This document shows, in pieces, positions 27,944-31,399 of a stretch of 41,055 nucleotides of DNA. A program made the translations under genes and the position numbers. Within the stretch, counting starts at the first letter, position 1; the number at the start of each line of letters is the position of its first letter. Source of the stretch: a virus; the IMG/VR virus record IMGVR_UViG_3300022937_000046, positions 1 through 41,055 of that record. The stretch is one strand, 5' to 3'. The notes below the pieces were generated by a model. It had not been told where the DNA came from. It made no database searches and saw nothing but the letters and a program-made list of their open reading frames with translations.

Positions 27944-28855
27944 ATGGTAAGAAGAACAATATCAGGAATTGGATTTGATAATTTTAATTTTCCAACAGAC
28001 ATCACTGCTGTCACAACACCATTGACTGATGTACAAGCAGATCTAATAAACACCGGTGCCCTTGATCAAGTTCAATATACAGATCCTTTTGGTAGAACGT
28101 CAACTGCTTACAAAGGGTTTCAAAATCCTCATGCACAGCAAGTTTCAGAAATTGCAAGTTTATTAAATGATTCTAAAAAAGATTTACCAGATGGCTGGAA
28201 TGCTCCTTATGGTTCACGAACTCCGGTACCGGCTTCGGTTTTAGGTACAAGTTCAGATCGTGTGCTAACAGATGCTGAAATCAATGATATTAATTTTGTT
28301 GATGATGTGTTGAAAGATTTTACGTATCTAACTAATAGACAAAGCGGAATGGATATTGCAGAGCAGTTGACATCACCATGGTCTATGTTTGGTAATTCAG
28401 CATATGGATCTGTTTATTCTTTACCAACTACACCAGGGTTTCCAGGAGGAGTTTCTGTACCAAACATTGGCGGTCTTTTAAGTGCCAGCTCAGCAGTTAA
28501 TAGACTGGCAACACATTTAACCAATGTGCCAGATACAGGGCCTTGTGCTTTGATTGGCGATGTTATGGAAGCCTTAATGAAAGGTGCAGAAATACTTGCA
28601 CAAATTCTTAACAAACTCAAAGAAGTATTAGGTTTTCTAGCAAAAATTTTAGGAATATTGGCTCTTGTAAAGTTATTAGCAGATCTAATGAAAAGAAATT
28701 TAGAAAATATTGGTAAAACTATAGAAATGCTAAAACAGTTAGCATTGGCTGGTTTGTTAGAACAATTGATGAAAGATCCATGCATGAGATATATCATTGA
28801 ATCTGTAATTTTAACAGCAGGCACGGTAGAAATATTAAAAAGAACCAATATTTAA
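27944..28855 (+). CDS. Structural-type protein downstream of PAAR
   Basis: 303 aa from the ATG at 27944, chosen because AGGAGGG precedes it; the longer reading from 27890 overlaps PAAR. The N-terminal half is loop/beta-type and Pro/Gly-rich (FGRTSTAYKGFQNPHAQQ; SLPTTPGFPGGVSVPNIGG). The C-terminal ~110 residues are strongly hydrophobic, helical and repetitive (LAQILNKLKEVLGFLAKILGILALVKLL), possibly membrane-active or a coiled-coil spike element. Linkage to PAAR suggests a tail/baseplate role, inferred. Confidence 0.75.
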   Translation: MVRRTISGIGFDNFNFPTDITAVTTPLTDVQADLINTGALDQVQYTDPFGRTSTAYKGFQNPHAQQVSEIASLLNDSKKDLPDGWNAPYGSRTPVPASVLGTSSDRVLTDAEINDINFVDDVLKDFTYLTNRQSGMDIAEQLTSPWSMFGNSAYGSVYSLPTTPGFPGGVSVPNIGGLLSASSAVNRLATHLTNVPDTGPCALIGDVMEALMKGAEILAQILNKLKEVLGFLAKILGILALVKLLADLMKRNLENIGKTIEMLKQLALAGLLEQLMKDPCMRYIIESVILTAGTVEILKRTNI

Positions 28856-28883
28856 TTGACAAATCCTTAAATAGTCGTATAAT
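28856..28883 (+). promoter_or_regulatory. Strong sigma70-like promoter of the tmRNA gene
   Basis: TTGACA at 28856-28861, 16-nt spacer, TATAAT at 28878-28883: both hexamers perfect. Predicted +1 ~28890, 36 nt before the T-stem of the acceptor piece. A late-type CTTAAATA (28866-28873) lies within the spacer and might add late expression. Confidence 0.8.
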
Positions 28884-28889
28884 TACAAT

Positions 28890-28953
28890 TACAATGTTGA
28901 AGTTGTCATAATAGATTATGCGGACCTCGGGGCAGTACCGAGCAGGTCCACCA
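28890..28953 (+). ncRNA. ssrA: tmRNA acceptor piece
   Basis: T-stem CTCGG (28926-28930) / CCGAG (28938-28942) with a 7-nt loop GGCAGTA. That loop lacks the usual TTC but is of the GGCAGTA type I associate from memory with alphaproteobacterial tmRNAs. The acceptor strand CAGGTCC (28943-28949), discriminator A28950 and encoded CCA (28951-28953) follow directly. Upstream 28912-28919 pairs with the coding piece as P2. The 5' end is set from the promoter and is approximate. Confidence 0.88.
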
Positions 28954-28973
28954 TAAACACATGGGAGTAGCAA

Positions 28974-29159
28974 ATGCAAGGAACAAATAGACTACCACGC
29001 AAACCCATGACAAATGGTGATGAATACGATGTGTTAACCAAAGCACGAAAGTTTTATTGTTATACACAAAGACCCAAAGTTTGTAAAAAGGTCAAGAAAG
29101 CATATAACAAAAAAGAACGCAAATGGTTAGATCGTGTGTTTATGATGGGCCTGAACTAG
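28974..29159 (+). CDS. ORF nested in the tmRNA intervening segment (61 aa)
   Basis: 61 aa, strongly basic. A GGGAG SD lies ~7 nt before the ATG. Core: NGDEYDVLTKARKFYCYTQRP then a Lys-rich KVKKAYNKKERKWLDR, plausibly nucleic-acid binding. The last four codons (GGC CTG AAC TAG) lie inside the tmRNA coding piece, so the 5' acceptor-stem strand doubles as coding sequence. Processing of the precursor to tmRNA would therefore cut the ORF's mRNA. I recall similar short basic proteins in marine phages but cannot name a family. Confidence 0.7.
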   Translation: MQGTNRLPRKPMTNGDEYDVLTKARKFYCYTQRPKVCKKVKKAYNKKERKWLDRVFMMGLN

Positions 29160-29316
29160 GATTGACGGTAATTTAAAAGGCAATGGAGTTGTTGGTAGGT
29201 GACGACCATAAATCGCACAAAACTATAAATGCAGATGAAAATCTAGCACTTGCGGCCTAATTAATTAGGCAGGCGGGGTTGGCAACTTACCTGGCAACAG
29301 AAAAGTTGCATTTAGG
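29147..29316 (+). ncRNA. ssrA: tmRNA coding piece with tag ORF
   Basis: Begins GGGCCTG, then AACTAGGATTGACGG, matching the conserved tmRNA 5' block (GGATTCGACGG) with one base missing. The resume codon GCA is at 29231, preceded by TA at -5/-4 as in E. coli tmRNA. Codons 29231-29257 give ADENLALAA, stop TAA 29258-29260, embedded in the palindrome GCCTAATTAATTAGGC. Downstream, CAGG (29270-29273)/CCTG (29290-29293) and GCAACTT (29282-29288)/AAGTTGC (29303-29309) interleave as an H-type pseudoknot. The 3' end is approximate. Confidence 0.9.
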
Positions 29317-30329: not shown

Positions 30330-30488
30330 ATGTCTAGCAGTATTAACACAAAAATAAAAGAATTAATAAAAAAAATTGAATATGCTGAACAAACCAACGA
30401 AGTACCAGAAAAGCAATACAATATAATGATTGATAATTTAAATCAACTTAAGAAAAAACAAAATGAATCAGATAAAGCAACGCATTAA
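30330..30488 (+). CDS. Small helical protein (52 aa)
   Basis: 52 aa from the ATG at 30330, chosen because it lies on the predicted +1; a TTG at 30294 would overlap the membrane-protein gene. A single charged helical hairpin (KIKELIKKIEYAEQTNEVPEKQ then a Lys-rich tail). Overlaps SufE by 26 nt. Family unknown. Confidence 0.6.
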   Translation: MSSSINTKIKELIKKIEYAEQTNEVPEKQYNIMIDNLNQLKKKQNESDKATH

Positions 30489-30888
30489 AAATTGGAGTGA
30501 TGACTTAGGACTATTAGATGGTCATAGTCGGTTAGAATACTTGGTTGATCTAGCCAAAGAATCAACTACAATGTCTCCTGAAAAACGCATCGATGAAAGA
30601 CTAGTAAGTGGATGTATTAGTAAAATTTGGGTTGATGTTCAAGTAAATGACAATCAAGTCACGGTAGAATATGACAGTGATGCTATGATTACCAAAGGTA
30701 TAACTAGAATTGTGTGTGAATGTGTAAATGGTAGTACAGTTGAAGATTGTAAGGAAATTGTTCCAGACGATTTTATGGATTTAGGATTTCAACAGTTGTT
30801 GTCAGCACAACGTAGAAATGGATTAGGCAATTTAATTAGTACAATTTTGACAAGATTTGACACATTAGCGTCAAAACAAACTAGTTAA
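30463..30888 (+). CDS. sufE: SufE-like Fe-S assembly protein
   Basis: 141 aa, usual SufE length. SufE accepts persulfide sulfur from SufS for Fe-S cluster assembly. Landmarks: LGLLDGHSRLEYLVDLAKES, then RLVSGCISKIWVDV, where the Cys (about residue 51) is the sulfur acceptor in the GCxS motif; then VEYDSDAMITKGITRIV, the family strand-helix. It is two features before a 7Fe ferredoxin, suggesting phage support of host Fe-S metabolism, an inference. Confidence 0.85.
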   Translation: MNQIKQRIKNWSDDLGLLDGHSRLEYLVDLAKESTTMSPEKRIDERLVSGCISKIWVDVQVNDNQVTVEYDSDAMITKGITRIVCECVNGSTVEDCKEIVPDDFMDLGFQQLLSAQRRNGLGNLISTILTRFDTLASKQTS

Positions 30889-31042: not shown

Positions 31043-31399
31043 ATGACCTACTATGTGAATCAATCCTGTATTATGTGTAAACACACTGACTGTGTAGATG
31101 TGTGTCCAGTAGACTGTTTTTACGAAGGTGAAAACATGTTAGTAATCAATCCTCTTGAATGTATTGATTGTGGAGTTTGTGAACCTGAATGTCCAGTTGA
31201 TGCTATCAAACCCGACAGTTTTGATGAACCTGACAAACAGCACTGGCTAGACATAAACAAAAAGTTTGGAGAACAATGGCCAAACCTAGCAGAAATTATT
31301 CCAGCTATGCCTGAAGCAGAAAAATACGCCCCAGAAAATTACAACAAAGACAAAACAGAGTTATTCTCTGAAAATCCCGGAGGAAAAAAAGATGAGTGA
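31043..31399 (+). CDS. fdxA: 7Fe ferredoxin FdxA
   Basis: 118 aa. Small electron carrier with one [3Fe-4S] and one [4Fe-4S] cluster. Cys set as in the Azotobacter-type family: C9, C17, C50 for 3Fe; C21, C40, C43, C46 for 4Fe; additional C12 and C25. Sequence around them ([19 protein letters not shown]) is highly family-typical. A C-terminal acidic extension follows. The 3' end overlaps the glycosyltransferase by 8 nt. Confidence 0.93.

Follow-up and report, generated by a model that had tools for sequence, protein, structure and literature searches.

Sequence comparisons indicate that phages have repeatedly used the intervening segment of permuted tmRNA genes as a slot for varied small protein genes. 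The case analysed here lies on a viral sequence of 41,055 nucleotides (IMG/VR record IMGVR_UViG_3300022937_000046, positions 1 to 41,055; hereafter the window), in which an open reading frame (ORF) of 61 codons sits between the two halves of a tmRNA. An earlier note on this DNA had described the tmRNA and omitted the ORF; the segment is a conserved protein gene, not inert sequence.

The window is a linear virus record of 41 kb that encodes a terminase large subunit, a DnaB-like helicase, a primase and a ribonucleotide reductase, a gene content in keeping with a T4-like phage. It also carries unusual phage cargo adjoining a tRNA-Ser(TGA) gene: a SufE-like Fe-S protein (30463-30888; Pfam E 3e-28) and a ferredoxin-like protein (31043-31399). 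The permuted two-piece phage tmRNA that the earlier note had placed at 28890-29316 was recovered by two Rfam models, each scoring over double its gathering cutoff: alpha_tmRNA (RF04321) matches 28852-29312 with 108.4 bits (E 7.5e-29; gathering 50) and tmRNA_permuted (RF01849) matches 28891-29260 with 104.1 bits (gathering 47). Searching with the alphaproteobacterial model was the check that the note had proposed, and it gave a match well above threshold rather than none. ARAGORN independently called a permuted tmRNA with the tag ADENLALAA. The locus is organised as follows:

28856..28883, + strand: sigma-70-type promoter, TTGACA (28856-28861), 16 nt, TATAAT (28878-28883); 12/12 consensus positions, a consensus match only
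28891..28953, + strand: tmRNA acceptor piece with one P2 side, T-arm, acceptor 3' strand, discriminator A and CCA (RF04321 and RF01849 alignments, computed acceptor and T-stem pairing)
28926-28942, + strand: T-arm CTCGG-GGCAGTA-CCGAG, T-stem 5/5 paired
28943-28949, + strand: acceptor 3' strand CAGGTCC, pairing with 29147-29153
28951-28953, + strand: encoded CCA, in the acceptor piece
28954..29146, + strand: intervening segment, 193 nt, outside mature tmRNA; putative boundaries set by the CCA and the acceptor 5' G
28954..28964, + strand: closing helix, 5' arm TAAACACATGG, 11 pairs with 29132-29142, present in the minimum-energy fold
28963..28967, + strand: Shine-Dalgarno-like GGGAG, 6 nt 5' of the ORF start, overlapping the closing-helix end (sequence reading)
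28974..29159, + strand: embedded protein gene, 61 aa, family A, with its stop TAG (29157-29159) inside mature tmRNA (relatives, dN/dS)
29132..29142, + strand: closing helix, 3' arm TCGTGTGTTTA, inside the last ORF codons (pairing and minimum-energy fold)
29147..29316, + strand: tmRNA coding piece with acceptor 5' strand GGGCCTG (29147-29153), resume region, tag and 3' stem (ARAGORN, Rfam); the 3' end at 29316 is approximate, the Rfam match stopping at 29312
29231..29260, + strand: tag reading frame GCA...TAA, ADENLALAA-stop (ARAGORN)

The anatomical claims of the earlier note were borne out. The elements it had described (a 7-bp acceptor stem, an 8-bp P2 and a 5-bp T-stem with a 7-nt loop) are all present, with the acceptor GGGCCTG/CAGGTCC paired at 7/7 positions, including G3-U70, and the T-stem at 5/5; the encoded CCA, the ADENLALAA-stop tag and the perfect TTGACA/TATAAT promoter also stand. 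The covariance score, the permuted order of acceptor, G3-U70, T-arm and CCA, and the ALAA-type hydrophobic end of the tag are those of alphaproteobacterial permuted tmRNAs. The note had also remarked that the GGATTGACGG block lacks one base. This gap is real, and is common to the same locus on three other IMG/VR contigs (L002-L004), which read GGATCGACGG here; these loci are near-identical to the window, the embedded ORF differing by a single residue. The recurrence of the locus on these contigs makes an assembly error unlikely. A missing base and a short tag might mean that the tmRNA has decayed and that only the ORF is maintained, and such decay does happen, as a truncated copy on contig L008 and a possible remnant on L360 illustrate. 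However, the acceptor, T-arm, G3-U70, CCA, tag and 3' stem are intact in the window and both Rfam models score well over threshold; we consider decay of this tmRNA very improbable. A DNA search among annotated phages returned no match to the window tmRNA, and no SmpB gene was found on the window contig.

The embedded ORF (28974-29159) starts just past the CCA, with GGGAG 6 nt before its ATG. Its last codons and its stop come from conserved tmRNA sequence, TTTATGATGGGCCTGAACTAG reading FMMGLN-stop. That stop falls 13 nt inside the mature coding piece, and the predicted cut at 29146/29147, within codon 58, would remove it. The encoded protein is basic (17 K/R, 5 D/E), and its AlphaFold model is helical with a long C-terminal helix (pLDDT 81). 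The model matched no PDB fold, and the protein matched neither Pfam (E 0.1) nor PDB sequences. As no Pfam family, and hence no endonuclease domain, was hit at E 0.1, we rejected the identification of the ORF as a homing endonuclease or intron ORF, and likewise as an ArfA homologue.

Relatives of the window protein, which we refer to as family A, were found on 18 viral contigs by plain search and on at least 80 by profile search. By tblastn, the window protein matched free-standing phage proteins on L005 (E 6e-26) and L014 (E 2e-13). Relatives match phrog_16066, a family of unknown function, with best E values of 5e-9 to 7e-9, whereas the window protein itself has no PHROG match at E 0.1. Family A genes occur in three settings: free-standing in tRNA arrays (L005, L011 and L012), beside the tmRNA (L007, just upstream of it, and L008), and inside the tmRNA segment (the window with L002-L004, L006, L114, L311, L367 and L428). 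The L006 contig ends within the ORF, leaving only the acceptor half of its tmRNA visible. This recurrent place among tRNA and tmRNA genes suggests that the 61-aa protein may act near translation or RNA. On a protein tree of 58 columns, weakly resolved, the embedded copies require at least two state changes across well-supported branches, so that family A has probably undergone more than one capture, or one capture and one release. In L360 a free-standing member has a C-terminus resembling the tmRNA-derived one; it looks like a fossil of past embedding. Separately, L008:4911-5449 holds a family A ORF and a truncated second tmRNA between direct repeats of about 70 nt, a complete tmRNA lying elsewhere on the contig (1964-2334); the arrangement looks like an inserted ORF-tmRNA cassette.

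Selection was examined between copies that are both embedded. Over 43 codons, the window and L006 differ by 13.5 synonymous and 8.5 nonsynonymous changes (dN/dS 0.10), distributed 4/4/14 over the codon positions; L311 and L428 give a dN/dS of 0.08. The window-L002 pair has too few changes for such a test. This conservation argues that the embedded ORF of the window is a real small-protein gene. It also bears on the view that the ORF is merely carried along untranslated, with the tmRNA as sole product, for which one may cite that the Shine-Dalgarno site touches the closing helix: purifying selection between copies both residing inside tmRNA genes makes this the least credible of the readings considered here.

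To place the window in context, a viral set was collected from pattern scans (one pattern alone gave at least 120 matches) and related loci. It comprised 302 distinct segments, some of which came through searches with the ORF family itself, and the figures are samples and not frequencies. An ORF was counted as qualifying when a Shine-Dalgarno-like site marked its start close to the CCA and its frame ran on to the tmRNA boundary. A length of at least 90 nt was attained by 134 of the 302 segments, and 68 of the 134 held a qualifying ORF, compared with a mean of 6.3 and a maximum of 12 in dinucleotide shuffles. A stricter earlier filter led to the same answer (26/54, versus 1.5 in shuffles), and the looser count is conservative, as additional members of families C and E, several in number, escaped the filter. 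Clustering sorts the 68 ORFs into 27 groups, 12 of them multi-member; the singletons may include chance ORFs (about 6 expected). Median dN/dS ranged from 0.10 to 0.27, all well below 1, in the 11 multi-member families tested, where within-family pairs are non-independent and families I, J and K are represented by one pair each. Pooled codon-position differences across the tested families were 740/523/1268. Every one of the 302 distinct viral loci retains G3-U70, and variation elsewhere in the acceptor stems is compensatory.

The same pattern applied to bacterial GTDB genomes yielded 66 distinct segments, of which a single one exceeded 62 nt. The two of at least 60 nt contained no qualifying ORF, and the shorter ones mostly had no room for one; the contrast between viral and bacterial segments is thus mainly one of length. 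With its 193 nt and conserved ORF, the window segment departs from the short, gene-free bacterial pattern. Bacterial contamination is an unlikely source of the coding segments: several of them have phage-type families (helicase, ribonucleotide reductase, tail) in their vicinity, the phage Melnitz, which carries one, is an isolate, and the sampled bacterial segments are without ORFs. Three of the ten proteins tested in this check had no PHROG match. The longest embedded ORF of the census, in the 352-nt segment of L577, has 117 codons, a TTG start and hydrophobic stretches. Seven segments (L105, L136, L441, L546, L550, L555 and L567) hold two overlapping ORFs in different frames: a leader of about 19-25 aa with an acidic GDSDEE-like motif follows closely behind AAGGAG, and a membrane-type protein starts inside it.

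The slot is not solely for proteins, since some long viral segments have no ORF and resemble structured RNA. A conserved non-coding class of about 105 nt occurs in L102, L275, L277, L503 and L554. Its predicted structure has 30 pairs, 12 with pair-keeping changes on both sides among these five sequences only, and Rfam searches of the L102 and L277 loci returned no known family there besides tmRNA; the class is possibly an unknown structured RNA in the tmRNA slot. A second conserved non-coding class of 80-96 nt (L027, L542, L549 and L628) has shared stretches such as GCTGTAAC and TTTACAGA.

The ends of the intervening segment pair with each other right beside the acceptor stem. There are 11 such pairs in the window and a median of 10-12 across viral loci, versus 4.7-5.6 when ends are swapped between loci. 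Folding of the window precursor is predicted to join this closing helix to the acceptor stem almost without a break, with an overall fold z-score of only -1.4. In several loci the Shine-Dalgarno site lies in or at the edge of the closing helix, and the 3' end of the ORF is the opposite arm. Very probably, one promoter gives one transcript that is at once the tmRNA precursor and the mRNA for the small protein in the spacer. Transcription from the single promoter would supply both. By analogy with known permuted tmRNAs, RNase P would cut at 29146/29147 and 3' trimming would expose the CCA, and the resulting two-piece tmRNA would be charged with alanine and rescue stalled ribosomes with the host SmpB. 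The embedded ORF would be translated from the precursor. Translation and folding should compete where the Shine-Dalgarno site touches the closing helix and the ORF 3' end is its other arm. Whatever the loop contains, this helix would keep the tmRNA halves joined, and genes of very different length could therefore be tolerated there. Once processed, precursors should no longer give the complete protein, since the ORF stop lies inside mature tmRNA.

Two readings share this anatomy but disagree about a functional link between the ORF and the tmRNA. According to the first, the segment is a tolerant, strongly transcribed slot for small genes, a matter of pure genome economy in which ORF and tmRNA are functionally unlinked. 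Unrelated protein families share the slot and family A is also found free-standing; likewise, family G occupies the slot in L063 and L298 while a like protein is free-standing directly downstream of the tmRNA in L428 (L428:3280-3420). Economy alone, however, leaves the repeated association of family A with tRNA and tmRNA genes unexplained. The second reading is a regulatory switch: maturation would cut off the ORF stop and leave a nonstop message, whose product would be tagged by the same tmRNA and degraded, so that, as with ArfA, the protein would appear only under slow processing or slow trans-translation. The window stop (29157-29159) does lie downstream of the expected cut, and in the family A members of the window, L114, L311, L367 and L428 the ORF always terminates within the tmRNA. 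There are also precedents, as the arfA nonstop mRNA is repressed by trans-translation (PMC10107115) and nonstop mRNAs from genes overlapping t(m)RNA genes have been proposed (PMC4131195). Against the switch, Pfam revealed no ArfA similarity and, across families, 23 ORFs stop just 5' of the cut and 25 inside the tmRNA, whereas random frame choice would place about two-thirds of the stops inside. A nonstop design as a general rule is thus unsupported by the stop positions. Because there is no excess of nonstop designs across families, we lean slightly towards economy and regard the switch as possible but rather unlikely. More doubtful still is a wider proposition, that phage permuted tmRNA precursors are double-function RNAs whose maturation decides the fate of the spacer message, the tmRNA in family A repressing the co-encoded protein by tagging once the stop is removed. 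The preferred account remains that of a single transcript serving as tmRNA precursor and as message.

As a phage tmRNA, that of the window is not new. The earlier note had held a virus-encoded tmRNA of this kind to be rare, which it is not, given the at least 120 viral-contig matches to one search pattern and the published two-piece phage tmRNAs: a two-piece tmRNA was described in the marine phage Melnitz, and 53 of 133 distinct phage tmRNA structures were two-piece (PMC9004378). Melnitz, a Methylophilales phage (MZ577097.1), is a T4-like marine myophage whose tmRNA, like that of the window, is permuted and of alphaproteobacterial type. The Melnitz segment contains a 54-codon ORF with the PKYLSG motif of family F, a different embedded protein from that of the window, at a place where the record annotates only the tmRNA. 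In addition, a glutamine riboswitch match lies just 3' of the Melnitz tmRNA (L437:1716-1764), whereas Rfam found none at the window locus. This riboswitch was reported as controlling the tmRNA; since the match is 3' of the tmRNA, it more likely controls what follows.

Alphaproteobacterial permuted tmRNAs (RF01849, RF04321) share with the window the architecture, acceptor, T-arm, tag and encoded CCA, but their sampled segments are short and empty where the window has 193 nt and a gene. A protein gene inside a tmRNA gene is likewise found with group I introns carrying homing endonuclease genes (PMC11915505). Those introns, however, are self-splicing, lie in the T-loop and encode LAGLIDADG endonucleases, whereas the phage genes occupy the processing spacer of a permuted gene and encode diverse small proteins. 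The arfA gene of E. coli also encodes a small protein, and RNA processing may strip the stop from its message, as it may from that of the window ORF (PMC10107115); there the cause is an RNase III hairpin inside the gene and not tmRNA maturation, and no sequence similarity to the window ORF was found. A survey of 2014 examined 115,660 valid bacterial t(m)RNA genes and encountered no Pfam-positive gene within them, in either orientation (PMC4131195). A study of 97,179 tmRNA sequences noted that intervening segments can contain a tRNA gene or a repeat, and we found in it no mention of protein genes there (PMC11915505); nor did we find, in the open-access literature, any account of protein genes lying in this position.

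Until now, what lies between the halves of a permuted tmRNA gene has been treated as a discarded spacer, and annotation of the tmRNA hides the embedded phage genes, even in a sequenced isolate. Melnitz is culturable, and in it ribosome rescue by one transcript and the translation of that same transcript can be examined together. Our findings add a class of overlooked phage small proteins and a new kind of overlap between RNA and protein genes.
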